Source: Kineothrix sp. MB12-C1 (lineage in GTDB: Bacteria; Bacillota; Clostridia; Lachnospirales; Lachnospiraceae). Taken from it: 64,000 nt of DNA. The position numbers and the translations under genes were made by a program. The notes below the pieces were generated by a model. It was given only the letters and a program-made list of their open reading frames with translations, made no database searches and was not told the DNA's origin. Shown here in pieces: positions 34,681-53,014 of this stretch; the first letter of the stretch is position 1, and every line of letters begins with the position of its first letter. The stretch covers positions 1,674,001 to 1,738,000 of the forward strand of contig NZ_CP132957.1 of assembly GCF_030863805.1 (NCBI RefSeq). Direction: 5' to 3'.

Positions 34681-34704
34681 ATTATCCTACCTCGCCTTCT
34701 TTAC

Positions 34705-34716
34705 GAAATCGCTTTC
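34705..34716 (-). promoter_or_regulatory. Candidate LacI-family/CcpA operator upstream of malE
   Basis: GAAATCGCTTTC, a near-palindrome with GAAA/TTTC arms and a central CG, the form of LacI-family and cre sites (AANCGNTT). It lies between a TATAAT (top 34752-34757, minus strand) and the malE start, where a bound repressor would block transcription. Confidence 0.5.
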
Positions 34717-34866
34717 CTTAATATGTTTAATAATATCTTGCGCGCAGTTTAATTATATCAATATATATTCGTATTTACTACATTAAATCTTTCATTTCTA
34801 TTGACTTTGTTAGGAAACCGCTATACTATTTTAGTAGAATTATACATATTTACAAGGAGGTTTTCT

Positions 34867-35926: not shown

Positions 35927-37063
35927 TTAGTAAAGTAACACCCTATTCAAACGACTCCCCAAACAGCTTAACAATTCGTTGGTAATTGTTCCTGCTGCCT
36001 CCGCAAGATCATAGACTGTTATTTCATGTTCCCCAGACTTTCCAATAATAACGGCTATATCGTCAGTGTTCACGTTAGGGATATCTGTAACGTCAATTAG
36101 CATTTGGTCCATACAGATACGCCCGATGATAGGGGCTTGTTTTTGATTTATCAAAACTTTCCCGCGCCCACAAGAAAGAGAACGCGGTATTCCATCAGCA
36201 TACCCGATTGTCAGGACAGCTATCTTCCTATATCGGTTCGCAATATATTGTAACCCGTATCCTGCGTTCTCTCCTGCATATAAATCTTTTGTCAACGCAA
36301 CCCGCGCTTTGATAGACAATATCGGAAGTAAAGATATGGGGCAGTTCTCTAAATCAGCGCGATTGCTTAAAACCCCATATAAGGCAATACCAATTCGGGC
36401 ATAATCTCCTACAAGCCCGGGATAATTTATAAGCCCATAACTTGCCAATAAATGTAGTTTGCCGCAATCATACCCACGTTTTTTCAAATCAGAAATAACC
36501 TTACAGAACACAGTTCCTTGTTGCATAGTAAATTTCCTGTCTTTTTCAGAAGTGCTTTCATCAGAGCATAAATGAGTATATGTGCCTGTTATCATAAGAT
36601 TTTTACATTGAAAAATACTGTATATTTCCTCTATTCTTTCAAAGCGTTCTCCTAAACGGTGCATACCCGTATCAATTTTCAAATGTACTTCTATTTTTTC
36701 TCCATAAGAGTTTAAGAGCTTCGCATATGAGCAGTCAATGACAGTTTGCGTAAGTCGGTACTTCCGAAGCATTGGGAATAGGTTTGGGTGGGTATAGCCT
36801 AGAATTAAAATCTCGCCTTGAATACCATGGCACCGCAATTCGATGCCCTCTGAAACAGTAGCTACACAAAATGAGCTTATCCCTAATCGGTTGAGTTCCT
36901 TTGAGAGCAATACGGCTCCATGCCCATAAGCATTTGCCTTAACCACAGGCATTAACTTCCCGCCTTGTGGCAGCAAGCTTTGTAAGGCAACGATATTTTG
37001 GAGCAGATTATTTCTATCTATCTCTATCCATGCACGGTCTTTGCAGTTGTTGTTATTCTTCAT
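35927..37063 (-). CDS. PLP-dependent alanine/serine racemase (Alr / VanT catalytic domain)
   Basis: Fold III racemase, 378 residues. PLP lysine in MPVVKANAYGHG, GYADGIPRSLS, and IGRICMDQMLIDVTD near the C-terminal Tyr-containing domain. Its start overlaps the end of the VanG-type ligase gene by four bases (ATGA), so the two are translationally coupled. In vanG, vanC and vanE clusters the racemase VanT makes D-serine, but VanT carries a long N-terminal membrane domain that is missing here. The protein is therefore either an Alr-like soluble racemase or a VanT catalytic domain alone. Substrate preference for serine is inferred only from the ligase neighbour. Confidence 0.88.
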   Translation of the reverse strand: MKNNNNCKDRAWIEIDRNNLLQNIVALQSLLPQGGKLMPVVKANAYGHGAVLLSKELNRLGISSFCVATVSEGIELRCHGIQGEILILGYTHPNLFPMLRKYRLTQTVIDCSYAKLLNSYGEKIEVHLKIDTGMHRLGERFERIEEIYSIFQCKNLMITGTYTHLCSDESTSEKDRKFTMQQGTVFCKVISDLKKRGYDCGKLHLLASYGLINYPGLVGDYARIGIALYGVLSNRADLENCPISLLPILSIKARVALTKDLYAGENAGYGLQYIANRYRKIAVLTIGYADGIPRSLSCGRGKVLINQKQAPIIGRICMDQMLIDVTDIPNVNTDDIAVIIGKSGEHEITVYDLAEAAGTITNELLSCLGSRLNRVLLY

Positions 37064-38139
37064 TTTTCCACCGCCAGTTCAATGGCTGCGGTAATAATCT
37101 GTTCAAAGGATAGGCCAACAGCCTTTAACATGGTTGGAAAGCGGCTGTGTGCTGTAAAACCCGGGATGGTATTTACTTCGTTAAACACGATTTCCCCCTC
37201 TGAGGATAAGAACATATCGACACGTGCAAATCCTCGACAATCCAGGGTCTTGTAAATGACTTTTGCTGTTTGTTTTACTTTGTTTACTGTGGCAGCGTCA
37301 ATCCTTGCAGGAACATGGATAGCCGAGGTTTTAAGGGTATACTTCTCTACAGAATCAAAGAAACCATCCGAAAGCTCTATTTCATCAACTTCGCCAACCG
37401 TTAGCGTATCGTTGCCTAAAACGGCGCAACCAACCTCAAAGCCGGATATATTTTCTTCAATGATAATTTTGTTATCATATTCAAAAGCCTGCTCAATCGC
37501 GGCAGGAAGCCCGTTTCTGTCAGATACCTTTGTTATGCCAAAAGAAGAGCCGGCCTTTATGGGCTTAACAAACAACGGATAGCCTATTTCTTCAGCTTGA
37601 GAAAGAGCCATTCCCGCGTTCATATTATTATCCAAAACGTAGGAACGGGGAACAAGAACACCAGCAGCATGAACAAGCTTATGCGCCCTATCCTTGTCCA
37701 TACAAAGGGCAGATGCAAGAACGCCGCATCCTGCCATTGGAATATTGGCAAGCTCAAACACCCCTTGTACCGTGCCATCTTCACCATTTCTTCCATGTAA
37801 GACAGGAAAAACAACATCAATATAAATTTTTAGGGCCTTATTATCCTTATACTCAAGGATAACGTGTTCCGAACGACTTTGAGATACAACCGCAGGAATA
37901 CAGGCAATGTCATCATGCCATGTATTGTCTTTAATTTTTTCAATACTGCCGTTAAAGTGAAACCAATCTCCTTGTTTTGTAATACCTATCAAAACAGGAA
38001 TATACCTTTCCTTGTCCATGTGGCTGATTACCGCATATGCGGATTGCAGGGAAACCTCGTATTCCGGGGAGCAACCTCCAAAAATTACAGCAATCCTTTT
38101 TTTATAAATTTCTTTTTCACAATTATTATTGAAGTTCAT
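37060..38139 (-). CDS. vanG: D-alanine:D-serine ligase, VanG type
   Basis: ATP-grasp ligase that joins D-Ala to another D-amino acid. It follows VanG along the whole length: IAVIFGGCSPEYEVSLQSA, VFPVLHGRNGEDGTVQG, CMDKDRAHKLV, IKAGSSFGITKV, FFDSVEKYTLKTS and VNTIPGFTAHSRFP. The EKYTLK omega-loop is the VanG/C/E form rather than the Ddl form, so the product is expected to be D-Ala-D-Ser. It is preceded by AAGGAGG and lies after a vanRS pair. VanXY, the D,D-peptidase that removes the normal D-Ala-D-Ala precursors, is not next to it. Whether it confers glycopeptide resistance is not established; many clostridia carry silent copies. Confidence 0.88.
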   Translation of the reverse strand: MNFNNNCEKEIYKKRIAVIFGGCSPEYEVSLQSAYAVISHMDKERYIPVLIGITKQGDWFHFNGSIEKIKDNTWHDDIACIPAVVSQSRSEHVILEYKDNKALKIYIDVVFPVLHGRNGEDGTVQGVFELANIPMAGCGVLASALCMDKDRAHKLVHAAGVLVPRSYVLDNNMNAGMALSQAEEIGYPLFVKPIKAGSSFGITKVSDRNGLPAAIEQAFEYDNKIIIEENISGFEVGCAVLGNDTLTVGEVDEIELSDGFFDSVEKYTLKTSAIHVPARIDAATVNKVKQTAKVIYKTLDCRGFARVDMFLSSEGEIVFNEVNTIPGFTAHSRFPTMLKAVGLSFEQIITAAIELAVEK

Positions 38140-38214
38140 TTTTCCTCCTTAGGATAAGCTTTAATCACCTTGCATAATTTTTTTCTACCCATACCGCTTT
38201 TCTTTACAAATGCT

Positions 38215-38275
38215 AAAAAACAGTCTGCTTATCTTTTGTATATAAATCATACCCAAAGTAAGCAGACTGCTTTTT
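38215..38275. terminator. Long-loop inverted repeat between vanS and vanG
   Basis: 11-bp perfect arms CAGTCTGCTTA (38221-38231) and TAAGCAGACTG (38259-38269) around a 27-base AT-rich loop. T-runs follow on both strands (TTTTTT on minus, CTTTTT on plus). Likely separates vanRS from vanG-racemase. Confidence 0.6.
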
Positions 38276-38328
38276 AATATAAAATTATTTATTTCCTAAG
38301 AAAATCCTAATTCTGCATTGACATTTTC

Positions 38329-39459
38329 CTAATTTTTTACCGGCAGCGTAATAATAAATACAATGGTTTCGCTTTTGCTGTTTGCCGTAATCGTTCCTCC
38401 ATGTAATGTAATGATTTCCTTTGCTATTGCCAATCCCAAACCGGCTCCGCCTGTATTTGAGGTACGGGCTTCATCTAAGCGATAGAACTTTTCAAAAATT
38501 GAGGACAGTTTTTCTTGTGGAATCGTCTTTCCCTTATTCATAAACGAGATAACTACCGAACCGCCCTTTTCCTCGGCAGAAATGTGTATTTCTGTATTTG
38601 GATAGCTGTATGCCATAGCATTTTTCAAAACATTATTGAATACCCTTGCTAATTTATCGGGATCACCATAAATGGTTAAGTTTTCATCGCTTTTAAGAGC
38701 TGCTGTATTTCCATTCTCGCATAGTGTAGGCGAAAGCTCATCGATAAGCTGCACAAGCATGTAATACAAATCTATGTTTTCTTTTGATAGACTTATTTGC
38801 TGCAGATTATAGCGTGTTATCTCAAAAAATTCGTTTATCATTTTTTCTAAACGGTAAGCCTTATCGAGTGTAATATCTACATACTTTGCCTTTTGATCCG
38901 CGGGCATGTCCGGAGCTTCTGCCAAAAGATTGAGATAGCCGATTACTGACGTCAGCGGTGTACGTATATCATGTGCCAAATACATAACCAAATCATTTTT
39001 ACGCTGTTCGGCTAACTGCGCTTCTAAAGTACGCTGCCTTAATTCCTGCTTTACTGCATTTAGCTTACGTTCTATTGCCGCCATTTCAGATGGTAAATAT
39101 ATCTCGCTATCATTGGATAGTAAGGTATCGATTCCCTGATTGATCATATCGAAATATCTGGTGAACCAATTAAAGACCACCCGCAGCAAAACAAAGAATG
39201 TGACGACAATAGCAATCGTCCAAATGATATATTTATAATTGCGAAAGACCAGTTGATATATATTAACCGCATTCCTATAGTCCATTCTAAAAACCTTCCG
39301 GAAAACAGAAACCATCCATTCACCGCCGCGCCCACGCCATCCCAACGTATATAAAACCGAAGTAATAATTAAAGCTATAACGGCAATACCCAAAAGCCGA
39401 ATGTGCAATTTTGACCTAAACTGAGCATAGTCAGCTTTGTTTTTATCATTATATTTCAA
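38329..39459 (-). CDS. vanS: Sensor histidine kinase, VanS type
   Basis: 376-residue kinase. Two membrane helices (LLGIAVIALIITSVLYTLG, IIWTIAIVVTFFVLLRVVF) flank a short extracellular loop of about 45 residues, then HAMP, HisKA with histidine in YLAHDIRTPLTSVIGYLNLL, and an HATPase with NNVLKNAMAYS, GKTIPQEKLSSIFEKFYRLD and GGAGLGLAIAKEI. This layout matches VanS of VanG/C/E clusters. The start is a TTG at 39459 that overlaps the end of vanR, with GGAG upstream. In this orientation it would control the vanG and racemase genes downstream. Confidence 0.88.
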   Translation of the reverse strand: MKYNDKNKADYAQFRSKLHIRLLGIAVIALIITSVLYTLGWRGRGGEWMVSVFRKVFRMDYRNAVNIYQLVFRNYKYIIWTIAIVVTFFVLLRVVFNWFTRYFDMINQGIDTLLSNDSEIYLPSEMAAIERKLNAVKQELRQRTLEAQLAEQRKNDLVMYLAHDIRTPLTSVIGYLNLLAEAPDMPADQKAKYVDITLDKAYRLEKMINEFFEITRYNLQQISLSKENIDLYYMLVQLIDELSPTLCENGNTAALKSDENLTIYGDPDKLARVFNNVLKNAMAYSYPNTEIHISAEEKGGSVVISFMNKGKTIPQEKLSSIFEKFYRLDEARTSNTGGAGLGLAIAKEIITLHGGTITANSKSETIVFIITLPVKN

Positions 39460-40150
39460 TTTTATATCCCACTCCCCATATTGTTTTTATATACTTCGGA
39501 TTGTCAACGGTATCATTTAACTTTTCTCTTAAATGTCGAATGTGAACCGTAATTGTGTTGTTGCTTTTGCTGTAATATTCGTCCTGCCAAATCTTATGAA
39601 ATAGATCTTCCGCACTAACTACACTACCCTTATTCTCTAAGAGAATACGCAAAATAGAAAACTCCGTGGGGGTTAGTACGAGTGATTTCTCATCCAACAA
39701 GCATTCGTGCGTTTTAATATTCATTATTAAGCCAGAATGAGAAATAACATCCTTTGCTGTCCCTTCGGAATGGATCGCATTATATTTCTTGTATCGACGC
39801 AGTTGAGCCTTTACTCTTGCAACCATTTCAAGCGGGCGAAATGGTTTCGTAATGTAATCATCTGCGCCGAGTGTAAGCCCTGTGATTTTGTCGGTTTCTT
39901 CATCTTTTGCTGTCAGCATAATAACAGGATAGGTATATCGTTCTCTTATTTTCTGACATAGTATAAAACCGTTAATATCAGGTAACATAATATCTAAAAT
40001 AGCAAGATCAAGCTCTGTTGTGTTGATAAATTCAAGAGCTTCCTTTGCTGTATAAAATTTAAAGACAGTATAGTTTTCGTTATTCAAATAGACTTCTATT
40101 AAATCTGCAATTTCAACTTCATCATCAACGACAAGTATTCTATCAGACAT
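39449..40150 (-). CDS. vanR: Response regulator, VanR type (OmpR family)
   Basis: 233-residue OmpR/PhoB-class regulator. The receiver has VVDDE, phospho-Asp in LDLAILDIMLP, and lysine in DDYITKPFRP; the C-terminal winged helix contains LTPTEFSILRILLENKG and SNNTITVHIRHLREKL. The ATG follows GGAAGGAG. Together with VanS it forms the first two genes of the vanR-vanS-vanG-racemase set. Confidence 0.9.
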   Translation of the reverse strand: MSDRILVVDDEVEIADLIEVYLNNENYTVFKFYTAKEALEFINTTELDLAILDIMLPDINGFILCQKIRERYTYPVIMLTAKDEETDKITGLTLGADDYITKPFRPLEMVARVKAQLRRYKKYNAIHSEGTAKDVISHSGLIMNIKTHECLLDEKSLVLTPTEFSILRILLENKGSVVSAEDLFHKIWQDEYYSKSNNTITVHIRHLREKLNDTVDNPKYIKTIWGVGYKIEI

Positions 40151-40622: not shown

Positions 40623-42533
40623 CTATTCTGTTTCCAATACCCAGACCTTCATCTGGTTCAATCCTCTGTTTCCCCAAGCGAAATAAGGTATTGCCTTTAT
40701 TCTTACATGTTCTGCTATCGGTTTTTCTTCCGTATAAAGTGCCTTACTGCCATGCATCCGAATTCCGTTCAGTTCAATAATCACCATACCCTCCAGCGGC
40801 TCATTTTCACATACAGATACTGCAAATTCTGTTTCTTTCGGAATTCTAAGTTCTTGTAAATGTTCTCCATTGTCTACACCTTCAAAAGCGTAAACGAAAG
40901 GTCCTCTCATTAATGCTACACAACCTTCATTTTCCCTTACTTTGGTATTACAATAAATTTTTCTAATTTCCATGGGAAAAGTAATTTCAACCTTGTCACC
41001 CTTTTCCCATATCCTGGACAAATACAAGTATCCATCCTTCTCCTCTGCATCCTTAATTAATTCCCCATTTAACTGAATCGTTCTATTTTTTACATAGGAT
41101 GGGATTCTGATTGCAAGTGTGAAACATATATTATCTTGCTTAGGATTTATGGTATAGATTATATTTCCTTCCCATGGATAGAGGCTCTTCACTTCGATAT
41201 CAGCATATTTAAACTCCGCATTACCCCCCAGGTAAAGATGTGAATAAATCGTATCCTCTGACTCACTCCACGCATATTTTCCAAGAGACATCAGCAGTCT
41301 GACCACATTAGGCGGGCAACAAGCACAAGCATACCAACCTGGTCTTTCGGGAAGGACATGCTTATGTCCATACAGCTTCCCTGAAATCTCAGGATTAACT
41401 TCCAATGGATTTACATAGAAAAATCTCTTCCCATCCAGCTGCATACCGCTCAAAATTCCGTTATACAATGCTCTCTCCATCACATCAGCATATTTATTGG
41501 ATGGATGGATATCCAACATTTTTTTAGCAAAGAAAACAAGACCAATAGATGCACAAGTTTCAGCATATATTGTATCATTGGGCAAATCATAATCAAGGGA
41601 GAAAGCCTCTCCTTCCACAGTAGAACCAATACCTCCGGTTAGATACATTCTCCTTTCAGTTATATTATCCCAAAGAGTTTCACATGCCTGCAAAAGCTCT
41701 TCTTCTCCTGTCTTTCCTGCAATATCTGCCATTGCAGTATACATATAAGCAGCTCTGACACTATGCCCTTCCGCCGTTTTCTGTTCCCGAACGGGTGCAT
41801 AACTCTGGTTATATTTTGTATCCATGGGATCTATTCCGAAATGCGTCCAACCCCGTTGCTCGTTCTCATCTTTAAAAAAATAAGGGTTCTTACCTCGTTC
41901 GTCAATAAAATACTGGGCCAGATCGCTATATTTTTCCTTTCCCGTAGTATGATATAACCTCATCAACCCAATTTCAATTTCCTGATGGCCTGGAATTCCG
42001 GATCTTTTATCCGGTCCAAACTGATCCATAATATGATCCGCCATCCGCTCCATGACCCTGAGAAGTTTTTCCTTGCCTGTTACCTCATAATATGCAACTG
42101 CAGCCTCCATCATATGTCCTGCACAATAAAGCTCATGACATTCTTGCAGGTTTTTCCATCTGCGCTCCGGTTCCTTAATCGTAAAGTATGTATTGAGATA
42201 TCCATCTTTTTGCTGAGCTTTCCCGATCACATCGATAATCATATCAGCACGCCTCTCCAACACTTCATCCGGCCTTATTGCTAATGAATATGCGACACCC
42301 TCCAACCATTTTGCCACATCACTGTCTTGGAATACCATGCCATAAAAATCACCTTTCTCCAATTCAGCAGCAATGCGAAAGTTTGCGAATGCATGACTTT
42401 TCTCTGCACCCTCAATATCATCATTCAAAATTGCCTCCTGATAGGGAATCACTACATTTATTATCTGACTCTGTCTTTTTGACCAAAATTCATCACTGAT
42501 TTTTATATTCCTTAAATCAACTTCTCTATTCAT
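40623..42533 (-). CDS. GH127 beta-L-arabinofuranosidase (HypBA1-like)
   Basis: 636-residue cytoplasmic glycosidase that removes beta-linked L-arabinofuranose. The zinc/cysteine catalytic site is visible: Glu and Cys in YAETCASIG (about residues 325-327) and the double cysteine in CACCPPNVV (about 402-404), matching Glu338, Cys340, Cys417 and Cys418 of HypBA1. No signal peptide. Start at 42533 (MNREVD) after AAAGGAATGG; the ATG at 42551 overlaps the permease stop. It is the last gene of the operon SBP-permease-permease-GH127, so imported arabino-oligosaccharides are the likely substrate; L-arabinose would be the product. Confidence 0.94.
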   Translation of the reverse strand: MNREVDLRNIKISDEFWSKRQSQIINVVIPYQEAILNDDIEGAEKSHAFANFRIAAELEKGDFYGMVFQDSDVAKWLEGVAYSLAIRPDEVLERRADMIIDVIGKAQQKDGYLNTYFTIKEPERRWKNLQECHELYCAGHMMEAAVAYYEVTGKEKLLRVMERMADHIMDQFGPDKRSGIPGHQEIEIGLMRLYHTTGKEKYSDLAQYFIDERGKNPYFFKDENEQRGWTHFGIDPMDTKYNQSYAPVREQKTAEGHSVRAAYMYTAMADIAGKTGEEELLQACETLWDNITERRMYLTGGIGSTVEGEAFSLDYDLPNDTIYAETCASIGLVFFAKKMLDIHPSNKYADVMERALYNGILSGMQLDGKRFFYVNPLEVNPEISGKLYGHKHVLPERPGWYACACCPPNVVRLLMSLGKYAWSESEDTIYSHLYLGGNAEFKYADIEVKSLYPWEGNIIYTINPKQDNICFTLAIRIPSYVKNRTIQLNGELIKDAEEKDGYLYLSRIWEKGDKVEITFPMEIRKIYCNTKVRENEGCVALMRGPFVYAFEGVDNGEHLQELRIPKETEFAVSVCENEPLEGMVIIELNGIRMHGSKALYTEEKPIAEHVRIKAIPYFAWGNRGLNQMKVWVLETE

Positions 42534-42550
42534 AATTACCATTCCTTTCA

Positions 42551-43393
42551 TTACCCTTTTACTGCTGCTCCGATTGTAAGTGCATTCTCTACTTGTTTAC
42601 TGAAAATCAGATACAAAATAATAGGTGCTATACTAGCAATCGTCAACGCAGCAGCGGAGGCACCCCAATCAGTTGCAAATTTACCTTGAAAATAAACCAA
42701 TCCGAGAGGTAATGTTTTTAAAGCATTATTTGAAATTACAATAAGTGCAGTAAACAACTCATTCCACGAATTCAGAAAAATAAATATGGAAGCTGACGCT
42801 ATCGCAGGTTTAACCAAAGGCATAATAATTAAAAAAAAGCAAGTATATATATTGGCTCCATCAATTGCAGCCGATTCCTCCATCTCATATGGAATTGATC
42901 TGAAAAAAGCATAGAATACCATGGATGTAAAGGAAAGATTAAATACAATATAAGGAATAATCACTGATAACAACGTATCTTGCAGATGAAGATCTCTGAC
43001 AAGAATAACAAGAGGTATAATAATAATCTGTACAGGAATAAACATGCCCAAAATTGCATAAATTCTCACTGCATTTGATAACCTCCATCTCATCCTGGCT
43101 GTGGCATAGGAAAACATTAAAGCAATCAATATAGTAAATGTTACAGTTATAATTGCTACAAATGTACTATTTTTAAAAAATAATAGTATATTAAATTGCG
43201 TTATTGCATTTACATAATTTTCAATACGGAAGTTTGTTGGAAAACCATATACATTAGTTGAAAATATCTCTTCATTATTTTTTAGAGAGTTAAATGCCAT
43301 CCAGATAAGCGGATAAATTGAAGCAAATGAGAATGTTGTTAAAACAAGATAAAGTATTGATTTTAAACAGATTTTTTTAAATCCTTCTGTCAA
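42551..43393 (-). CDS. Carbohydrate ABC permease, CUT1 second permease (AraQ/LacG-like)
   Basis: 280 residues, six helices. The EAA loop reads EMEESAAIDGANIYTCFFLIIMPLVKPAI; ends VENALTIGAAVKG. Start is a TTG at 43393, with GGAGGG eight bases before it. It pairs with the upstream permease and overlaps the GH127 gene region. Confidence 0.93.
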   Translation of the reverse strand: MTEGFKKICLKSILYLVLTTFSFASIYPLIWMAFNSLKNNEEIFSTNVYGFPTNFRIENYVNAITQFNILLFFKNSTFVAIITVTFTILIALMFSYATARMRWRLSNAVRIYAILGMFIPVQIIIIPLVILVRDLHLQDTLLSVIIPYIVFNLSFTSMVFYAFFRSIPYEMEESAAIDGANIYTCFFLIIMPLVKPAIASASIFIFLNSWNELFTALIVISNNALKTLPLGLVYFQGKFATDWGASAAALTIASIAPIILYLIFSKQVENALTIGAAVKG

Positions 43394-43407: not shown

Positions 43408-44295
43408 TTAATATATAATTCTTTCTCGCGCCATAAATTTATTAATAATCAGTGTAAACAGCAAGCATTCTGCTACCAGTATGACTGCAGAAACACATCC
43501 GTACCCAAATTCTCCTTTTTGGAATGCCGATTTGTACATAAGGTAAGAAAGTGTCATCGTTGATCCGCCTGGACCACCGCCAGTCATAACAAACATATTG
43601 TCAAAGGCTTTTAGACCACCTGTAATCGACATAACAAAAGTGAACTTATAGGTTTCCGCTATCAGCGGGAGCGTAATTTTCCTATGAATTGTCATAGACG
43701 ATGCTCCATCAATCGTTGCCGCTTCATAATATTGTTCCGGTATTGATTTAATTGCAGTATAAATAAATACAAACATAATCCCCATAAATTGCCAGGCATT
43801 AGTAAATGCTACAGAGTAAATTGCTACTTTGGGATCAGATAGAAATGCTATCTTGTGATTTTCACCGAATATTCCCAAAATATTATTGATCAATCCATGA
43901 TCGTAGTTATATAGTTGAGACCACAATTGTCCAACAACCGTTACTGATAATACAACCGGAATGAAAAAACTAGTTTTAAAAAATGCCCTACCTTTAATAC
44001 GGAGTGTCTTCGTTGAAAATATGAGTGCCATAACGGTCGCTACTCCTTGTTGGTAAATGAAAACAACGGCAGCAAAAATAAGCCCATTCTTTAAAGAAGG
44101 AATAAAATCAGGATCTTTTAATATTGTTTTATAATTTTCTAATCCGGTAAAAATAGGCTCAGTAATACCATCCCAATCATAAAAGCTTTTTATTAATGTC
44201 TGAAATATCGGATATATCATCATCAATGTGTACAACGCTAAAAATGGCATTACAAATATAAATATTGCAGATTTCTTGTTTAAAAATTTATTCAT
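43408..44295 (-). CDS. Carbohydrate ABC permease, CUT1 first permease (AraP-like)
   Basis: 295 residues, six helices, EAA loop EQYYEAATIDGASSMTIHRKITLPLIAET. The last cytoplasmic turn is KFMARERIIY. ATG preceded by GGAGAAG. Gap to the partner permease is 14 bases. No ATPase gene is nearby, so the operon probably shares a MsmK/MsmX-type ATPase encoded elsewhere, as is common in Firmicutes. Confidence 0.93.
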   Translation of the reverse strand: MNKFLNKKSAIFIFVMPFLALYTLMMIYPIFQTLIKSFYDWDGITEPIFTGLENYKTILKDPDFIPSLKNGLIFAAVVFIYQQGVATVMALIFSTKTLRIKGRAFFKTSFFIPVVLSVTVVGQLWSQLYNYDHGLINNILGIFGENHKIAFLSDPKVAIYSVAFTNAWQFMGIMFVFIYTAIKSIPEQYYEAATIDGASSMTIHRKITLPLIAETYKFTFVMSITGGLKAFDNMFVMTGGGPGGSTMTLSYLMYKSAFQKGEFGYGCVSAVILVAECLLFTLIINKFMARERIIY

Positions 44296-44433: not shown

Positions 44434-45801
44434 TCATTGTCTGTTCTTTTCAAGAAAAGCGTTAACATTTGTAGCAAACTCATCCGGGGCATATTCACCG
44501 GTAAATAATTTTTGTACCTCACTACCTAAATCTGTCTGGATTTTGCTGCTCTCAAAGCCCCATCCCATTATGGTGGAATATTTTACATTGGCAACTGCCT
44601 CTGAAAGCTGATTTGTCAATGCGTTGGGAGCTTTTTCCGGAGTAAACGATGCCTCTAACATTGTATTAAGCTCGCCGGTCTTTACAATTCTTGCTTCGAT
44701 ATTTTTTAAAGCGAATTGCACAGCATATTCGGCAGCAATGTCCTTGTATTGGCTATTTGCAGCTACCGCAAATCCACCTGTGAAACCTCCGCCACTCATC
44801 ACTCCGGAATCTTTTACAGCTTGAGCCTCTGAAGCATCAGCTAATACATATGGCAGAAGTAATGTTACATCATCTCCCATCGTATCTCCAAATTCCTGGG
44901 CCATCCAATTTCCGCATAATAGCATCGCCGATTTTCCGCTCTTAAAATCAGCAACAGCCGAATCATAGTCCATTGAAAATGCATCCTTTGAGATAAGTCC
45001 TTTATTAGCAATTTCTTGAATTTTAGAAGCTGCATTAAGATACGCCGGATCCGATGCATTTGCAGTGCCATTCAAATCCAAATCTGTAATACCCTTTTGA
45101 CTTTGAGTTAAAGAAAACATATCAAAAAGCTGTAGGGGAGGCCATGTTTCTTTCAGCCAAATTCCAAGCGGTACAATACCTTTCGCTTTTAACAATTCTC
45201 CAGCCTGAAGGAACTCTTCATAATTTTCAGGAACTTTTGCTCCCGCCTCTTCAAACAGAGCCTTATTAACATAAATTACAGCAAAATTTGTGTTGGAGCC
45301 AATTATTCCCCAAGTATGCCCATCTTGTTGCATTAAAAGCGACTGCCCTGTAGGGGTAAGCTGATCTGCTATATTTAGCTTTTGAATATAATCATCTAGC
45401 GGAACAGCACTATTTGAATTGACTGCCGTAGCAATATCAGAAGTAGATACCTCAAATATATCCGGCAGGCTGCCTGTTGCAAAATATGTTTTTAACTTCG
45501 CTCCACTGTCTTGCGGCATAACATCAACTTCTATTTCAACATTTGGCATTATTTTTTTCATTTCTGCCATTGCATAATCGAGCTGAGACTTTTCATCTTC
45601 AGAAGTATAATGAGCATACATCTTCAATTTTACAGTTTCAGCGGGAGTATCAGCTGCCGGTGTTTCAGTCGCGGTAGTCTCTGCTTCAGAAACTGTATCA
45701 GATACATTATTATCCGGGGTTTGAGAAGCACAAGCAGTCAGTGATATAGCCATAATTGATACCATTAGTAATGCTTTAAATTTCGAGAAAAATTTATACA
45801 T
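44434..45801 (-). CDS. Carbohydrate-binding lipoprotein of CUT1 transporter
   Basis: 455-residue extracellular solute-binding protein. Signal peptide ending in lipobox LTAC; Thr/Glu/Ala-rich linker; body with VKLKMYAHYTSEDEKSQL, ALFEEAGAKVPENYEEF, KSAMLLCGNWMAQEFG and GGFTGGFAVAANSQYKD. AGGAGGAGG ribosome site. First gene of the GH127 operon, and its promoter carries the conserved YesN-type box (45862-45918). Substrate inferred as arabinofuranosyl oligosaccharide. Confidence 0.93.
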   Translation of the reverse strand: MYKFFSKFKALLMVSIMAISLTACASQTPDNNVSDTVSEAETTATETPAADTPAETVKLKMYAHYTSEDEKSQLDYAMAEMKKIMPNVEIEVDVMPQDSGAKLKTYFATGSLPDIFEVSTSDIATAVNSNSAVPLDDYIQKLNIADQLTPTGQSLLMQQDGHTWGIIGSNTNFAVIYVNKALFEEAGAKVPENYEEFLQAGELLKAKGIVPLGIWLKETWPPLQLFDMFSLTQSQKGITDLDLNGTANASDPAYLNAASKIQEIANKGLISKDAFSMDYDSAVADFKSGKSAMLLCGNWMAQEFGDTMGDDVTLLLPYVLADASEAQAVKDSGVMSGGGFTGGFAVAANSQYKDIAAEYAVQFALKNIEARIVKTGELNTMLEASFTPEKAPNALTNQLSEAVANVKYSTIMGWGFESSKIQTDLGSEVQKLFTGEYAPDEFATNVNAFLEKNRQ

Positions 45802-45861: not shown

Positions 45862-45918
45862 ATTCTAACAGGTCCATTGTATGAACAGAAGGAAAAATCC
45901 GATACCTTTTTGTAATTT
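45862..45918 (-). promoter_or_regulatory. Promoter with conserved 18-bp activator box (GH127 operon)
   Basis: Minus-strand extended -10 TG-T-TAGAAT (top 45862-45870) with no consensus -35. The box AAATTACAAAAAGGTATC (top 45901-45918) lies 39 bases from the -10. The same box with one base changed occurs at the same distance upstream of the chemoreceptor gene (51837-51893). It is the best candidate binding site for the response regulator at 46056. Confidence 0.75.
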
Positions 45919-46055
45919 GAGGTGTATTATTCAAATATGGTAAAGAAGAGGTCATTAAAAGACCCTTTCCAATAAAGCTATAAGCAAGCACAGTTAGAAA
46001 AGGCTACTCCTATAAGCTGATATGTAATTAACAGAAAAGAACGTTATAAATTATG

Positions 46056-47648
46056 CTATTTCTTACTATTTCCGTATTCACTGGGAGATAATCCTGTATA
46101 CTTTTTAAAGCATTTGCTGAAATAACCGGCATCACTATATCCGATCACTTCTGATATTCTGGATATTGCAATATCTTTGTCGGAGGTCAACAATTCCTTG
46201 GCTTTTTGCATTCTTGCACTAGTGATATAATCGGACACTGTTATACCTATTTCTTTTTTAAAAGTTTTCCGTAAATAACTGGAATTTATAAAAACATTCT
46301 TCGAAATCTTACCAATATCCAGCTCATTATCCTGTAAATTAGAGTCAATATAATCCTTTACCTTTTTTACTAATAACTTTGATTTTGTTAATTTATGTTT
46401 ATCCAAATAATAGATGACTTTTTCAAATAACTGAGTAAACCAAAGTAAAGACGTTTCCAAGGAACCGATATTATTAATTTCTGAATAAGGAGAAAAATTC
46501 TTACCAAAAACATCCTCAATACTTTTGCCAAGTTCAACAATATAGGAAAGGCATAATGAAACTAAGCCCGCAAAAATAGTCATGGTATAATCTACCGACA
46601 GTTTTTGTTCCTTTATAAAAGAAAAAATATTAGCCAGCTCTTCTTTAATAACTTCAATATCACCCATTTTTAACCCCAGAAGCAGATTTTCATTAATTTC
46701 ACTGGGGTAAAAACCAATATTCATTCCATTTGACTCAACGCTGCTATAATCTATTACCTTTGAATTACTCAAAATAAGTTTGTTTTGCAGCGCAGCCAGA
46801 GCATCTTTGTAAGAACCACGGACGGCTTCAAATCCCCTGGCAGGTCTGCCAATGCCGACCGTCACAGTAAAGTCAAAGTATTTCCTTACTACCTCACAAA
46901 GTCTCTGGTATCCATCTGTACTGAATTTTATCAAATCTTCGTCATCTTCAAATTGAATCAGCGAAATAATTCTTCCTTCTGGCCCGTTGAAAATAATATT
47001 TTTCCCTTTGATGTTGGTAATTTCATTTAAAATATTGGCAAGAGCAAATTGCCAAAGTACAATTTCACTTGCCTCACTCCACCTTTGATACATGTTGTCT
47101 ATCTCCACAATTGCTACACGAAATAAAAGTGAATGAATATTAATACCCAATCGGCTTAAGCGGGCTATCATTTCATCCTCCTTCAAAATAAATTCATTGC
47201 TAATCAATAGGTTAAGCAGCCTTCCTTTTATCATCTCTGTTTCTGCTTTATGAGCCGTTATTTCAAGCCTGTCTTTCTCAATACTTTCTTTTATCTTAAG
47301 TAGTGGAACCATCAATTCATCGTTATTAAATGGTTTTAGTATATAGTCCAGGGCGCCTAGCTTTATCGCTTTTCTTGCATAATCAAATTCATTATGTCCA
47401 GTTACCAATATAACTGCTATGTTAGAATACTGGTCCCTAAGCCTTTCTATTAATTCCAGACCATTCATAAATGGCATATTAATATCAACAAGAGCGATAT
47501 CTGGTTTAAAGGTTCCAATCTTTTCCAATGCATCCAGCCCGTTCTTTGCTTCGCAGCATATTTCAAATCCGTAATTTTCCCATTCCACTGATTCAACTAG
47601 ATACTGTCTGTAAAGAGGTTCATCATCAACAACGATTAATTTCAACAT
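46056..47648 (-). CDS. Response regulator, REC plus AraC-type DNA-binding domain (YesN-like)
   Basis: 530-residue regulator. Receiver domain: VVDDEPLY, phospho-Asp in DIALVDINMP, LDYILKPFNN. Middle region is unassigned. The C-terminus has two AraC helix-turn-helix units (DIGKISKNVFINSSYLRKTFKKE, RISEVIGYSDAGYFSKCFKKY). Its ATG lies inside the end of the upstream kinase gene (23-base overlap) after GGAGGTAGCGG. Probable activator of the GH127 operon and of the chemoreceptor, through the shared box. Confidence 0.94.
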   Translation of the reverse strand: MLKLIVVDDEPLYRQYLVESVEWENYGFEICCEAKNGLDALEKIGTFKPDIALVDINMPFMNGLELIERLRDQYSNIAVILVTGHNEFDYARKAIKLGALDYILKPFNNDELMVPLLKIKESIEKDRLEITAHKAETEMIKGRLLNLLISNEFILKEDEMIARLSRLGINIHSLLFRVAIVEIDNMYQRWSEASEIVLWQFALANILNEITNIKGKNIIFNGPEGRIISLIQFEDDEDLIKFSTDGYQRLCEVVRKYFDFTVTVGIGRPARGFEAVRGSYKDALAALQNKLILSNSKVIDYSSVESNGMNIGFYPSEINENLLLGLKMGDIEVIKEELANIFSFIKEQKLSVDYTMTIFAGLVSLCLSYIVELGKSIEDVFGKNFSPYSEINNIGSLETSLLWFTQLFEKVIYYLDKHKLTKSKLLVKKVKDYIDSNLQDNELDIGKISKNVFINSSYLRKTFKKEIGITVSDYITSARMQKAKELLTSDKDIAISRISEVIGYSDAGYFSKCFKKYTGLSPSEYGNSKK

Positions 47649-49428
47649 ATCCGCTACCTCCAGTCAAAAAAGGAATTGTTACAGTTATTACCGTCCCTTT
47701 CCCCAATTCACTCTCGATCTTCAAACCATAATTTTCGCCGAAAAATAATTTAATTCTTTCATCTACACTACGCAATCCAAAGGATTCCTTAACAGTTTCA
47801 GGGTGCTGATAGTCAAAAATTTCCTTAATCTTTTCTTCAGAAATCCCCACACCATCATCAAAAACTTTTATTAATACGTTATCGCCTTCCATATATCCTT
47901 CGACAAATATCCTCCCAAAACTTCCTTTTGTTTTAAGCGCATGATAGATGGAGTTTTCCACTAACGGCTGCAAAGTTAGTTTCAAAATCTTACTTTTCTT
48001 TATCTCATCTTGCACCTTTATTTCGTAGTCAAAAACATCATAATACCTATACCGCTGAATATTTAGATAATCATTCACATTTTTTATTTCTTCTTCCAAT
48101 GAAATTATTTCTTTTCCTTTACTCAAAGCTATTCTATAAAAATCTGCAAGGGATTTTGTTGCAATTTGAGCTTCCTTCGCCCCGGCCATTCCACATAAGG
48201 TATAAATCAATTCAAGGGAATTGTATAAAAAATGGGGCTTTATCTGAGCTTGAATCAGAGCCAATTCATATTCCCTTAGCTTTTTTTGCTCCTGAGTCGA
48301 TTTATTTAACAACTCTTTAATTCTTTCAACCATTATATTAAAGCCCGAAGCCAACCTTCCTATTTCATCCTTTGAGTTCACATCACAAACAACATCCAGA
48401 TTCCCATCCTTAATCTCATCCATCTTTTTAGTGAGTTTCACGAGAGGTTTTGCTATTACTCTAGATAGCACCGTTGCGGCTAATAATGCCAAAATCATAC
48501 ATATAAAGCCTAATATTACAACAACTATTGTGTTTTTATTAACATCGGCCGTCAATTCCTGTATAGGAATAACACTTACTAGTTTCCAATCAAAGTACTC
48601 TAAAGACGTAGACGTAACCAGCATGTTTTTTCCATCGATATTCTTAATTTCACTGAAATTTCCTCTGCTTAGAATTAATTGTCTCAACTTTGTGTTAGCT
48701 AAAGGTTTCAATACATCATCTTTTTTTTGAGATGACATAATTTTGCCTTGTCCATCCAATATAAAATAACTCGTTATATTTTCAGGTCCTACACTTACAT
48801 AGATGTCGGAAATTGAACTTTCTTTTATATTTAATATGAGTATTCCAAGCTTTTTACCGCTTCGCGGGTCAATTACTTTTTTAGCAAGAGTTAATACCGA
48901 AGAATTCATATCCGTTACTAAAAACTCCCTTTTTTGCATTAAAAGCCACTTATTTTGAGTGTTACTATTATCGATCTCATTAAAAAGTCCACTTTCACAA
49001 GCTTTATTTAAATTATTTGCTAAGCTATTATTTATAATAAAGGCATTCAAATCTTTATCTATAAATGCTGAAGATTCAATATCAGGAAATGTTATTTTTA
49101 TAGTATTTAACTCGTTTTCAATTTTACCTCGCATTTCAAGATAGGAGGCGCTATTTTCTCCATAATTTAAATTGCTTTGAATAATTTTAATAAGGCTTAA
49201 AGTAGTAATATTGGCACAGTTCTCCGTATTAGCCATCATTGTATTTATTCTTGTGACAATTAAGGTTGAGTTGTCAGCTACATTCTTCACTGTTTCCTTG
49301 ATTATCGCCTGAGAAAATATATAATTTGAAATATATCCCAAAAAAAATAAAGGTATTATAACAAGCGGTATGTATATATATAATATTTTGTTTTTTATCA
49401 GTTGATTCTTAAACCATTGTTTATCCAA
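47626..49428 (-). CDS. Sensor histidine kinase, YesM-like
   Basis: About 600 residues. N-terminal helix (YIYIPLVIIPLFFLGYISNYIF), extracellular dCache-type sensor of about 250 residues, second helix (NTIVVVILGFICMILALLAATVL), HAMP, then His_kinase with IKPHFLYNSLELIYTL and a full HATPase domain (LQPLVENSIYHA, FDDGVGIS, FGLRSVDERI). The start is taken as TTG at 49428 because GGAGG lies about ten bases before it; the GTG at 49437 sits too close to that site. Its partner response regulator follows, overlapping by 23 bases. Confidence 0.92.
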   Translation of the reverse strand: MDKQWFKNQLIKNKILYIYIPLVIIPLFFLGYISNYIFSQAIIKETVKNVADNSTLIVTRINTMMANTENCANITTLSLIKIIQSNLNYGENSASYLEMRGKIENELNTIKITFPDIESSAFIDKDLNAFIINNSLANNLNKACESGLFNEIDNSNTQNKWLLMQKREFLVTDMNSSVLTLAKKVIDPRSGKKLGILILNIKESSISDIYVSVGPENITSYFILDGQGKIMSSQKKDDVLKPLANTKLRQLILSRGNFSEIKNIDGKNMLVTSTSLEYFDWKLVSVIPIQELTADVNKNTIVVVILGFICMILALLAATVLSRVIAKPLVKLTKKMDEIKDGNLDVVCDVNSKDEIGRLASGFNIMVERIKELLNKSTQEQKKLREYELALIQAQIKPHFLYNSLELIYTLCGMAGAKEAQIATKSLADFYRIALSKGKEIISLEEEIKNVNDYLNIQRYRYYDVFDYEIKVQDEIKKSKILKLTLQPLVENSIYHALKTKGSFGRIFVEGYMEGDNVLIKVFDDGVGISEEKIKEIFDYQHPETVKESFGLRSVDERIKLFFGENYGLKIESELGKGTVITVTIPFLTGGSGYVEINRC

Positions 49429-49464
49429 CGTTATCACACCTCCATATATTTTTTAAACCTTTAT

Positions 49465-49497
49465 ATAAAACAAAGAAACAAGCCTTTCTGCTTGCTT
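49465..49497 (-). terminator. Terminator or attenuator ahead of the kinase gene
   Basis: Minus-strand stem with arms AAGCAAGC and GCTTGTTT (one G-U pair), 6-base loop, then a T-rich run. It is about 175 bases beyond the chemoreceptor stop and 37-70 bases before the kinase start, so it may terminate the chemoreceptor message or attenuate the kinase. Confidence 0.5.
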
Positions 49498-49670
49498 CTT
49501 CTTTATTGGGAGCTAAGCGAGCATAGTCTTTGTGAAAGCAACCAATATCATTTTTTAATTATAACATACATTCACTTAAGTATAGATTTAATCACTCAAA
49601 ATCAAACTGTAATTATTCATATTTCGATTTACGTTTGTTTTACACTCCTTCTTGTTTATCCATTAAGGAT

Positions 49671-51788
49671 TCACCCTACCTTGTATTCCTGTTCCATCTT
49701 AAATCCTGAAATAGCTTCGCTAAGTTCTACCGACAATCCTTGCAAATTAACTGCTAAGTTAGCAAGCAATTTTGCTTCCACAATCTGCCTTTGCGTATTT
49801 GTCGATACTTCTTCGGTTGTTGCCGCAGTTTCCTGTGCAACCCCTGCAACACTTTCTATTTTTGACAAAGTTAAATTCTTAATTTCAAGAATTTGACTTA
49901 CTGCATTACTTACATCATTAATCTGATCTGAAATATTTGCCATTGCCTCAAAAATTGCTTTGAATGAATTATCAGTTTCTTCTACAACATCCATTTGTTC
50001 CGAAATTACTATGTTGGCACTATTGGCAGCACTGACTGTTAATTCCGTCTTTCTTTTAATATTTAACAGAATATCACTGATCATTACAGAGGCGCTTTTT
50101 GATTGATTTGCAAGTTTTCTAACCTCCTCAGCTACTACCGCAAAGCTTTTTCCCGTTTCTCCAACCCTTGAAGCTTCTATCGCAGCATTTAATGCAAGTA
50201 AATTTGTTTGCTCCGAAATATCTACTATTATTCTTGTTATTTTCTGTATTTCCTGCATTTCTTTACTTAAGTCATTTATATTATCAATTATCTTGGTAGA
50301 AACAGATTTTGTTTCAACTGTCTTATCATTTAAAGACTTAACTGTAGACATTGCTACATCACTTAATCCCTTTGTATTTTTAACAACTTCAGCAACATTT
50401 CCTATTACTACTTCAACGCTATTGATATTACCTGAAAGCATATTTAAAAAATTGGCACCTTCTGAAATGTCCTCGGCCTGATTTGCTGCTCCCGTGGCAA
50501 TTTCCTGAATTGTTATTCCAACTTGCTCTGAACTAATTTGTGAACGCGAAGTTGAAATGATTATTTCTTCCGAACTTTTTAAAACTTTTTGCGCAGAAGT
50601 ATTGACTTTTGACACAAGCGAGTTAATATTTTGTGACATCTCATCGAAATTGGATATAACATTAGCTATTTCATCTTTACTTTTATCTCTCAGCTTATTT
50701 GAAAAGTTTCCCTTTTTAGCTTCGTTAATCAGTCCTACCAAACGTTTTAAGGGTGTAGATATGCTAATTGTAATTGTGTAAGCTAAAAAAAGGGCAATAA
50801 TAAGACATAGTATTGTTATAAAAATAATTGTATTCCTCACACTATTTGTCTCAGTATTCAGGAAAGAATAAGGCACTGCTGCTACCATATACCAATCCGT
50901 ATCCTGTATTTTAGAAAACGTAACCAGATAATCCTTCCCACCAATATCAGTTGAAAAACCTTGTCTTTCGCTTTCAAGTTTTTTTATTAATAGTTTATCT
51001 CTATATGGAATCCCAAATGTAGATACTGAATTTTCACTTGCAATTACGATACCATTTGAATTGATTATAAATATATCTAAGCCATTGCCTAAATTAACAT
51101 CTTTTAGTACATTAGAAAAAGTTTCCGGTTTTAAAAACATGTACATTTGCCCAAGAACATTTCCATCATCATTTGATTGAATTTTACTCAATAATAGCAA
51201 CTGCGGAGAGCCATCTTCCGCCTTAATCATACTTAGTACCGAGTTATTGTTTGAAATTTCCATTTTTTTTTGAATTTTTTCTTTGCTTTCATCGGATACC
51301 ACACTATCTCCCAGATGGTTATCACCAATTGTAATACTCTCACCAATATTGATATAAAGTTTTTTAATTGATTGATTAATACCTGTAGTATTCGTAAGAA
51401 GTGACTCTATCTTCCTTGTGGAATCTAGCTTTTTCAAATTATCATTCGAATAAAAATCATCAACACTATTCTGTAATTCTTCGGATATAATTATATTTTT
51501 ACTTACAGCGCTAATTTTCTGAATCTCAGCATGAACATTTTTCCCAATTTGTTTTACAACTTCCGTTGAATATGAACTTATTTTTGCTTCAATAGCATCA
51601 TTGGATTTTTTATATGCAATAGAACCAACCACAGATAGAGGTATAAAAGTAATAATAAAAAAGGACACAAACAATCGAGTTTGTATTTTAACATTTCTGG
51701 ATATTCTGCCAAATCTACACAAAGTTTTAAATAAAACTCTTAACCGCTCTGTTATCACAATATTTTTTACTTGTCTTTTATGATTCAT
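49671..51788 (-). CDS. Methyl-accepting chemotaxis protein (dCache, HAMP, signalling domain)
   Basis: 705-residue chemoreceptor. N-terminal helix (RLFVSFFIITFIPLSVVGSIAY), extracellular double-Cache region of about 270 residues, second helix (IIFITILCLIIALFLAYTI), HAMP, and signalling hairpin with QTNLLALNAAIEASRVGETGKSFAVVAEEVRKLA. The stretch GETGKSF differs from the usual GxG(R/K)GF at one glycine. The C-terminal segment lacks a CheR-binding pentapeptide. ATG after AAAGGAG. Its promoter has the same 18-bp box as the GH127 operon, so the sugar response probably also raises this receptor. AT-rich codon use like its neighbours. Confidence 0.93.
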   Translation of the reverse strand: MNHKRQVKNIVITERLRVLFKTLCRFGRISRNVKIQTRLFVSFFIITFIPLSVVGSIAYKKSNDAIEAKISSYSTEVVKQIGKNVHAEIQKISAVSKNIIISEELQNSVDDFYSNDNLKKLDSTRKIESLLTNTTGINQSIKKLYINIGESITIGDNHLGDSVVSDESKEKIQKKMEISNNNSVLSMIKAEDGSPQLLLLSKIQSNDDGNVLGQMYMFLKPETFSNVLKDVNLGNGLDIFIINSNGIVIASENSVSTFGIPYRDKLLIKKLESERQGFSTDIGGKDYLVTFSKIQDTDWYMVAAVPYSFLNTETNSVRNTIIFITILCLIIALFLAYTITISISTPLKRLVGLINEAKKGNFSNKLRDKSKDEIANVISNFDEMSQNINSLVSKVNTSAQKVLKSSEEIIISTSRSQISSEQVGITIQEIATGAANQAEDISEGANFLNMLSGNINSVEVVIGNVAEVVKNTKGLSDVAMSTVKSLNDKTVETKSVSTKIIDNINDLSKEMQEIQKITRIIVDISEQTNLLALNAAIEASRVGETGKSFAVVAEEVRKLANQSKSASVMISDILLNIKRKTELTVSAANSANIVISEQMDVVEETDNSFKAIFEAMANISDQINDVSNAVSQILEIKNLTLSKIESVAGVAQETAATTEEVSTNTQRQIVEAKLLANLAVNLQGLSVELSEAISGFKMEQEYKVG

Positions 51789-52165
51789 TCAACATTCTCC
51801 TTTAAGTAAATATCCCGAGGAAACTAGAATATAATTATTCTAGCAGGTATACTTTTTAGACAGAATGTAAAATTTGATACGTTTTTGTAATTTAAGGGTA
51901 TTTAAGGATACTGTACTTGTATTGATTATGAAAAAGTATCATAATAAAAGCAATATTCTTAATTATGTATGATATTTTACAAATACAATACTTTACCAAA
52001 GCAATTAATTGAGACACACCATTTTACCTATTAGTAATTATTGAAATCAATTAACCTGTTGTTATTATTTAAATCATTACATTCTAAATAAACCATTTAA
52101 TTTATAAGTAGAAAATAATTAATTTAGCAAATCGGTATAAATCCTAAAGAAAGTGGTATTTTTTG
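51789..52165. other. Divergent intergenic region between chemoreceptor and AraC regulator
   Basis: 377 bases without a gene. The half nearest the chemoreceptor carries its promoter and the 18-bp box. The rest is very A/T-rich. Toward the AraC gene GGTATAAAT (about 52134) is a possible -10, but no matching -35 is seen. A further AAAAAGTATC on the plus strand (near 51932) resembles part of the box, too weak to call. Confidence 0.6.
51837..51893 (-). promoter_or_regulatory. Promoter with conserved 18-bp activator box (chemoreceptor)
   Basis: Extended -10 TG-C-TAGAAT (top 51837-51845) and box AAATTACAAAAACGTATC (top 51876-51893), 39 bases apart, exactly as in the GH127 operon promoter; 17 of 18 bases of the box are the same. 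Confidence 0.75.
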
Positions 52166-53014
52166 ATGAAGTACAAACATGGACTTTTTGGCATCCTTAA
52201 TGCAGATGAAATGAGTAACCCACCTCTATACTTATCTGATGGTGGTATTGAAAGTCGTTACCAAGAGGTATACGACTTGGATAATCGTAAACGAAAAGGC
52301 TACGGTGGATTTGTTTTTCAGTATACTTTATCCGGATACGGTTATCTTGAAATGAATCAAAAAGTGAACAGAGTGAACCCCGGGATGGGTTTTGTCGTAA
52401 GCGTTCCTGGAGACAGCCGCTATTATATAAATCCTCAAGAAGAGGTTGCATGGGAATTCATCTATTTGCATTTTTACGGTGATTCTACGAGACCATTTAT
52501 TGAGAAGCTATCCACTCTGTGTGACTGTTTATTCCATATTGATAAAAGCAGCTCACCTATCCAACAACTATTTAAGCTGCAAAATCGTATGATTACTGGC
52601 GGCTATCTTCATAAGTATGAAGGGCAGGAAATCCTCTATCACTTCCTTTGCAGCCTCTTACGAGAGATTGAATTTCCTTCTAAAAAAACTGAAGACTCCC
52701 TCGTTAGTCACGCTATTCGCCTGATTGATGCCGAATACAATACATTGGAAGGTATCTACGAAGTTGCTAAACGTCTAAATATTTCTCAGGAGCACCTAGC
52801 ACGTAATTTTAAAATAGAACAAGGAGTTACACCAATCAAGTATTTGACAAATATTCGTATACAAGCTGCTATTAATATGTTACTTAGTACTACGAATACC
52901 ATTAAAGTAATTGCTGAAAACTGCGGATTTTCGAATAGCAATTACTTTTCAAAAGTATTCAAGAAGTATGTGCACTTATCACCTGAAAAATATCGAGAGC
53001 AATACAAATTCTAG
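52166..53014 (+). CDS. AraC-family transcriptional regulator (cupin sensor, RafR/MsmR-like)
   Basis: 282-residue regulator. The N-terminal cupin half (QYTLSGYGYLEMN, MGFVVSVPGDSRYYIN, EVAWEFIYLHFYG) binds a sugar; the C-terminal AraC domain has GIYEVAKRLNISQEHLARNFK and VIAENCGFSNSNYFSKVFKKY. Start at the ATG 52166, with AGAAAGTGG as a weak ribosome site; the frame could be read from a TTG one codon upstream. It lies convergent to the alpha-galactosidase gene, the usual target of RafR/MsmR-type regulators, so regulation of that gene is likely but indirect. Confidence 0.92.
   Translation: MKYKHGLFGILNADEMSNPPLYLSDGGIESRYQEVYDLDNRKRKGYGGFVFQYTLSGYGYLEMNQKVNRVNPGMGFVVSVPGDSRYYINPQEEVAWEFIYLHFYGDSTRPFIEKLSTLCDCLFHIDKSSSPIQQLFKLQNRMITGGYLHKYEGQEILYHFLCSLLREIEFPSKKTEDSLVSHAIRLIDAEYNTLEGIYEVAKRLNISQEHLARNFKIEQGVTPIKYLTNIRIQAAINMLLSTTNTIKVIAENCGFSNSNYFSKVFKKYVHLSPEKYREQYKF

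Follow-up and report, generated by a model that had tools for sequence, protein, structure and literature searches.

In a 64,000-nucleotide stretch of the chromosome of Kineothrix sp. MB12-C1 (contig NZ_CP132957.1, positions 1,674,001 to 1,738,000; called the window below), two closely similar promoter elements on the minus strand precede a sugar transporter operon and a chemoreceptor gene. Both elements are probably operators of the YesN-type response regulator encoded at 46056-47648, which would activate the operon for an extracellular solute-binding protein (SBP), two permeases and a GH127 glycosidase as well as the gene for the chemoreceptor, a methyl-accepting chemotaxis protein (MCP). 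The minus-strand gene order is chemoreceptor, sensor kinase, YesN-type regulator, SBP, permease, permease and GH127.

The paired promoter elements

A preliminary description of this DNA had pointed to two 18-bp boxes differing at one base, AAATTACAAAAAGGTATC at 45918-45901 and AAATTACAAAAACGTATC at 51893-51876, both on the minus strand. Their positions are correct and the boxes are real, but each is the upstream portion of an element of about 60 bp, the second half-site of which had been missed. The element consists of AAATTAC, a second half-site [AG]ATTTT[TA]C 20 bp further on, which runs into the -35 position, and an extended -10 sequence TGnTAGAAT. Its parts at the two promoters are as follows.

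45862..45918, minus: element before the transporter operon; ranked first among about 128,000 positions by matrices built from related loci
45918-45912, minus: half-site 1, AAATTAC
45900-45890, minus: half-site 2, GGATTTTTCCT
45890-45885, minus: TTCTGT at the -35 position
last base 45862, minus: extended -10, TGTTAGAAT (TAGAAT at 45867-45862)
51837..51893, minus: element before the chemoreceptor gene; rank 2 with matrices of 22 or 18 rows, rank 3 with 27 rows
51893-51887, minus: half-site 1, AAATTAC
51875-51865, minus: half-site 2, AAATTTTACAT
51865-51860, minus: TTCTGT at the -35 position
last base 51837, minus: extended -10, TGCTAGAAT (TAGAAT at 51842-51837)

At both promoters TG stands one base 5' of TAGAAT and 33 bases separate the box from the -10 hexamer; the 39-base spacing reported earlier is obtained if one counts from the box's 3' end up to the final base of the -10. 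The TTCTGT segment, previously called similar, is identical in the two promoters and lies exactly 17 bp 5' of the -10. It matches TTGACA at only two of six positions, so that the extended -10 indeed stands without a good -35. A loose promoter scan returned an overlapping TTCATA-17-TAAAAT (9/12) at 45885-45857; such loose matches occur in the region at background level (57 found, 59.9 expected). As read from the sequence, the promoters are laid out as for a class II activator, with two half-sites on the same face, 20 bp apart, the second adjoining TTCTGT at a useless -35, and with an extended -10 after them. A precedent is given by AraC-type regulators of Caldicellulosiruptor bescii, for which extracts of PMC8579813 describe tandem-repeat sites upstream of mapped promoter elements, read as those of activators, and report such repeats for three of five AraC-type two-component systems of carbohydrate uptake. 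On the strength of this anatomy and precedent, both promoters are taken as targets of the regulator.

The best ungapped 60-mer, from CCTnAAATTAC to TAGAA, is identical at 46 of 60 positions in the two promoters. Dinucleotide shuffles of both 254-nt upstream regions gave a mean of 31.6 (sd 1.3, maximum 39), and none of 1000 reached 46. Agreement per 10-base block is 1-5 upstream, 6-10 across the element and then 5, 2 and 3 downstream; since identity drops at both edges, the two places do not share a long duplicated stretch. The region around the elements is A+T-rich.

Scatter of the box across the genome had been named beforehand as the result that would speak against common control. The box was not scattered. 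Within the window the box, written with S at the variable base, gave 3 matches at up to 3 mismatches against 0.29 expected, and in the genome, a single 3.94-Mb contig containing the window, a search with up to 2 mismatches returned 3 matches, namely the two sites and one with 2 mismatches, as compared to 1 for the backward control. The additional match lies inside a frame (locus L003) which, from its translation, is presumably pyruvate kinase. The spaced pattern of half-site 1, half-site 2 and -10, itself derived from the two window sites, had no third genomic match when up to 3 mismatches were allowed, and its backward control had none. Among 61 genomes, the 57-bp element was found at up to 3 mismatches only in the genome of its origin. 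Judged from these searches, the complete switch seems to occur at only two chromosomal places.

Motif and gene order at related loci

Loci related to the window were selected by similarity to the response regulator, and the best 80 of 561 were retained. Of these, 36 have an SBP gene on the same strand no more than 1200 bp downstream; 30 remained after removal of near-duplicates, and 27 intergenic regions were long enough for motif searches. An ungapped search of the 36 regulator-SBP intergenic stretches with the window consensus gave scores mostly inside the shuffle range. When coding sequence was retained, Gibbs sampling returned the conserved end of the regulator gene, and this motif was rejected. 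With coding sequence and the window left out, 14 of 24 runs on the 27 regions gave a 60-bp motif of 25.5 bits, as compared to at most 14.3 bits over 12 runs on letter-permuted regions. This family motif consists of ATTTTAC, a second half-site with TTCC 20 bp on, and TATAAT at the same distance as in the window. A 22-row matrix, from which the poor rows L035 and L063 and the near-duplicates L054, L057 and L060 had been omitted, has its strongest direct-repeat signal at lag 20 (0.124), followed by lag 21 (0.059).

The comparison with promoters of related loci, which the preliminary description had called for, thus gave a motif in the same register that ranks the window sites 1 and 2 or 1 and 3. 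With the 22-row matrix they rank 1 (24.0 bits) and 2 (14.6 bits) of about 128,000 positions, with an 18-row matrix scored in two parts 1 and 2 (25.4 and 17.2), with an 11-row subset 1 and 3, and with all 27 rows 1 (21.3) and 3 (12.9) of 127,882. Column-permuted matrices placed both sites in the top 2 in 0 of 200 cases and either site in the top 20 in 1 of 200. High scores were also obtained for SBP promoters outside the training rows (L043 7127, minus, 28.8 bits; L046 1261, 19.9; L048 2890, 18.5), with a matrix that included the window sites. These results support the view that an element at a conserved distance from the -10 recurs beside relatives of the regulator, before transporter operons. 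The third-ranked 22-row match in the window (51774-51833, plus, 12.8 bits) lies over the chemoreceptor start and is directed towards a neighbouring AraC-type gene; it is probably a chance match.

Chemoreceptor genes occur in the fetched stretch of some of the 36 regulator-SBP loci, namely L034, L036, L039, L047 and L049. The Paenibacillus psychroresistens locus (L049) has the gene order of the window (MCP, kinase, regulator, SBP, permease, permease), and its MCP is 45% identical to the window protein over 681 residues. The SBP promoter of this locus is one of the Gibbs rows, one base out of register. A candidate site in front of the MCP gene ranks 2 of 35,152 on twelve positions chosen post hoc, and 20 and 74 by two wider comparisons. 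The same locus holds an element-like match (L049:974-1033, 17.9 bits) upstream of a short response-regulator-like frame at 1180-1425. In an Anaerolineaceae metagenome-assembled genome (L047) the order is kinase, regulator, element, SBP, permease, permease, MCP and GH36, with a 95-bp gap before the MCP gene in which no terminator-like site was found; its element scores 32.2 bits with a matrix that includes this site. In the two Cohnella loci, L034 and L036, an element stands before the kinase gene (L034:5989, 28.3 bits; L036:5949, 23.4 bits), which suggests autoregulation there; a weaker one precedes the kinase gene in L068 (18.8 bits).

Several of these comparisons weigh against the proposed common control. 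An MCP gene turned up at only 5 of the 36 regulator-SBP loci, and in two of these, L034 and L036, it follows a hairpin with a T run, recognized by eye, and is therefore probably separate. The gap before the L047 MCP gene holds 5 promoter-like matches on both strands against 1.2 expected, so that this gene may have its own promoter, and a Pfam search found no dCache domain in its product. With the 18-row split matrices the candidate before the L049 MCP gene ranks 5 of 35,084, which is only suggestive, and the top 10 do not include that locus' own SBP-promoter site, which is shifted by one base. In the window itself, the SBP-side site falls to rank 3 and the chemoreceptor-side site to rank 31 when the -10 columns are removed. 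With the first 33 columns only, the SBP-side site ranks 7 and the chemoreceptor-side site lies outside the top 12, and with these columns of the 11-row subset neither site reaches the top 12 in register. When random halves of the rows were used, both sites came within the top 2 in 44 of 200 draws and within the top 5 in 103. Among 17 loci scanned, L035 and L042, with regulators 43% and 36% identical to that of the window, gave no match of at least 11 bits; L003, the presumed pyruvate kinase locus, gave none in the same scan. As judged from sequence, the site on the chemoreceptor side is clearly a copy of that on the SBP side, but it matches the family motif less well. The earlier claim that the regulator controls both promoters is partly supported, by the matching element at the same -10 distance beside its relatives.

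Searches starting from the chemoreceptor gave additional loci. Fifteen stretches (L138-L152) were fetched from the 24 MCP matches found outside the own genome at class level. Two of them, L138 and L140, have the order permease, permease, MCP on the same strand; L149 has permeases beside the MCP gene on the opposite strand, and in 11 of the 15 tblastn with the window permeases gave no match. In L139, where MCP and permease genes also share a strand, an MCP-permease-permease-SBP-GH53 row diverges from a regulator-kinase pair; this row headed by a chemoreceptor gene (L139:3194-14235) is a possible galactan counterpart. In L138, L139 and L140 the interval separating MCP and permease genes gave no terminator-like site, and in L139 and L140 it contains a promoter-like match on the gene strand. 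Since the three best ortholog-matrix matches per locus include none before the MCP genes of L138-L152, these loci support gene order only. At the order level, tblastn of the 1.5-kb flanks of six MCP matches (L118-L123, 31-32%) revealed no kinase-regulator pair; in L120 the MCP gene has a permease-like match next to it on the same strand, and L123 has matches resembling the AraC helix-turn-helix domain. In the family, order and class searches the best 2 to 4 candidates per genome were scored, and misses are weak evidence. Among 16 genomes of the genus, in each of which as many as 92 candidates were scored, the regulator search passed E 1e-80 in the own genome only, and the MCP passed 1e-60 in its own genome and in G299 (26% identity).

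The proposed regulatory system and its alternatives

The genes and intergenic features on which the proposed mechanism depends are the following.

49671..51788, minus: chemoreceptor (Pfam dCache, HAMP and MCP signalling domain)
49555..49614, minus: weak candidate element (AATTAC ... TGTTATAAT) before the kinase gene, upstream of the hairpin
49472..49501, minus: terminator-like hairpin between the chemoreceptor and kinase genes, with a 12-bp stem and a weak T tail
47626..49437, minus: sensor histidine kinase, partner of the regulator (Pfam dCache, HAMP, His_kinase PF06580)
46056..47648, minus: YesN-type response regulator (Pfam Response_reg 5-113, GGDEF_2 157-288, HTH_18 449-526)
44434..45801, minus: SBP, first gene of the target operon (Pfam SBP_bac_1)
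43408..44295, minus: ABC sugar permease 1 (Pfam BPD_transp_1)
42551..43393, minus: ABC sugar permease 2 (Pfam BPD_transp_1)
40623..42551, minus: GH127 glycosidase, touching the permease 2 stop (Pfam PF07944, 8.6e-112); taken as part of the same operon

The Pfam assignments of a receiver, a GGDEF-like and an AraC helix-turn-helix domain agree with the earlier classification of the regulator as YesN-type. In the proposed mechanism the dCache histidine kinase would sense an oligosaccharide, directly or via a binding protein, and phosphorylate the regulator. The AraC-type domain of the latter would bind the two direct half-sites, which at 20 bp are two helical turns apart on the same face, and from the downstream half-site, which reaches the defective -35, RNA polymerase would be recruited to the extended -10. 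Importer and chemoreceptor would be produced together once the sugar is present, and the chemoreceptor would presumably respond to the same sugar as the importer. Binding, activation, phosphorylation and the ligand are all inferred. The membrane-proximal parts of the chemoreceptor and kinase sensor regions are related (27% over 141 amino acids, E 7e-9), and the genome contains one match to the CheA dimerisation domain.

Tentatively, the scheme may be extended: oligosaccharide-sensing YesN/kinase pairs of some Clostridia and Paenibacillaceae could run a module for sensing, import and swimming, in the window via two operator copies and in L047 maybe via the importer row. Such a regulator could turn on an importer together with a dedicated chemoreceptor, and the taxis repertoire would be put in place only once the sugar is sensed; we regard this joint reading as plausible, short of probable. 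It includes, at the same tentative level, a common ancestry of the sensor regions of the window chemoreceptor and kinase.

The strongest alternative is that the chemoreceptor-side element serves mainly autoregulation: the chemoreceptor gene would come first in a common transcript with the kinase and regulator genes, and selection would act on positive feedback to the regulator. We consider this possible and lean somewhat against it. Element, chemoreceptor gene and kinase gene follow one another on a single strand, and the same element precedes the kinase gene in Cohnella (28.3 bits in L034, 23.4 in L036). The 12-bp-stem hairpin in the window separates the chemoreceptor gene from the kinase gene, which argues for separate transcripts, yet its T tail is weak and its fold is only moderately better than that of shuffled sequence (-16.9 kcal/mol for 81 nt, z -1.6, with 12 of 200 shuffles equally good). 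Also against a common transcript, a separate -10-like sequence and the weak candidate element stand before the kinase gene; this candidate scores 9.8 bits at rank 6 with the 22-row matrix and ranks 18 and 14 with two split matrices. Autoregulation is compatible with shared control of the chemoreceptor, and both can be true together. The chemoreceptor-side site may also, or mainly, feed back on the downstream kinase and regulator genes, a possible service that the preliminary description had overlooked when it named the chemoreceptor promoter, correctly as regards the presence of the element, as a target.

Binding of the boxes by another protein, either a global factor or the AraC-type protein encoded at 52163-53014, is unlikely. 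The AraC-type gene is divergent from, and adjacent to, the chemoreceptor promoter, but the family motif derives from loci picked solely by response-regulator similarity, and a search of L031-L110 kept no match to the AraC protein, a weak test as weaker overlapping matches were dropped. For a global factor more than two genomic sites would be expected. It is even harder to believe that the promoters are copies by descent without common control: an identity of 46/60 at places 6 kb apart would fit a copying event, but it is limited to the element and falls off at both edges, and distant loci conserve these spaced positions as well; duplication followed by selection would be compatible with shared control. 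Chance similarity, for which the A+T-rich sequence might be held responsible, is negligible in view of the shuffles (0/1000), the lack of a third spaced genomic site (control 0) and the independent matrix ranking.

A sigma-D promoter before the chemoreceptor gene was also considered and rejected, as no match was found in 51789-52162. The pattern scanned for, TAAA-N15-GCCGATAT, is what we take to be the sigma-D consensus; with up to 2 mismatches it gave 13 matches in the window against 9.5 expected.

Known systems, substrate and neighboring genes

Reportedly, arabino-oligosaccharides are sensed in Geobacillus stearothermophilus by the AraPST system with a YesN-like regulator, which resembles the system in the window; we know of no chemoreceptor target of AraPST. 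Comparable systems are found in several published sources, represented here by extracts of their text. The Caldicellulosiruptor bescii systems share with the window the AraC-type DNA-binding domain and tandem-repeat sites, but the word chemotaxis has no occurrence in the main text of PMC8579813, whereas in the window a chemoreceptor gene is the proposed second target. CuaDSR of Ruminiclostridium cellulolyticum likewise combines a YesN/AraC-family regulator, a kinase and a solute-binding protein in the control of an oligosaccharide transporter; the extracts of PMC10384115 deal with cellobiose sensing by means of a binding protein and describe neither a chemoreceptor target nor an operator. In Shewanella the chemoreceptor gene mcpNag counts among the auxiliary genes of the N-acetylglucosamine pathway, but it is listed with the regulator NagR, the host is a gammaproteobacterium and there is no two-component system (extracts of PMC2996990). 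Among the Gram-positive polysaccharide utilisation loci of Roseburia, Ros-7 has an ABC transporter and a kinase together with a methyl-accepting chemotaxis transducer, and Ros-8 contains GH51 and GH127 with an ABC transporter; Ros-7 differs in its LytTR-type regulator, and the extracts of PMC5320581 describe no operator or co-regulation.

Accordingly, YesN regulators of sugar importers, tandem-repeat operators and chemoreceptors in sugar loci are already known, and what looks new here is a chemoreceptor as direct second target of an AraC-type two-component regulator. Searches of the open-licence PMC literature gave no paper that we recognized as reporting direct control of a chemoreceptor by a YesN-type two-component regulator, and extracts of PMC2914790 offered nothing on this point. 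To our knowledge, many chemoreceptors and YesN-type regulators of Firmicutes are without a known ligand. A two-promoter regulon that ties an importer to a chemoreceptor would be useful in this respect, as the inducer of one would indicate the attractant of the other. A further suggestion is that, besides the flagellar sigma factor, substrate-specific two-component systems may determine the chemotactic repertoire. If this is true, the bacterium may swim towards a sugar only after detecting it.

The GH127 enzyme suggests a beta-L-arabinofuranoside or a related pectin sugar as substrate. The top NCBIfam model for this protein is aceric acid hydrolase, under its cut-off (449/950 bits). The sugar assignment is weakened because loci of related regulators carry differing enzymes (GH94, GH4, GH95 or GH36, not GH127). 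Of the arabinofuranoside uptake proposed earlier, the GH127 assignment is borne out by Pfam; the step from there to the sugar has GH127 as its sole basis and stands on less firm ground, given the best model and the differing relatives.

Further away, a VanG-like cluster is located at 35927-40150 on the minus strand. Its VanT-G-type serine racemase catalytic subunit, VanG D-Ala-D-Ser ligase and VanR-family regulator score above the NCBIfam cut-offs, and its VanS-like kinase lies just under the cut-off (398/400 bits). An ABC operon with an alpha-amylase-like enzyme, as read from the translations, is found at 29668-35883, divergent from a LacI-type regulator.

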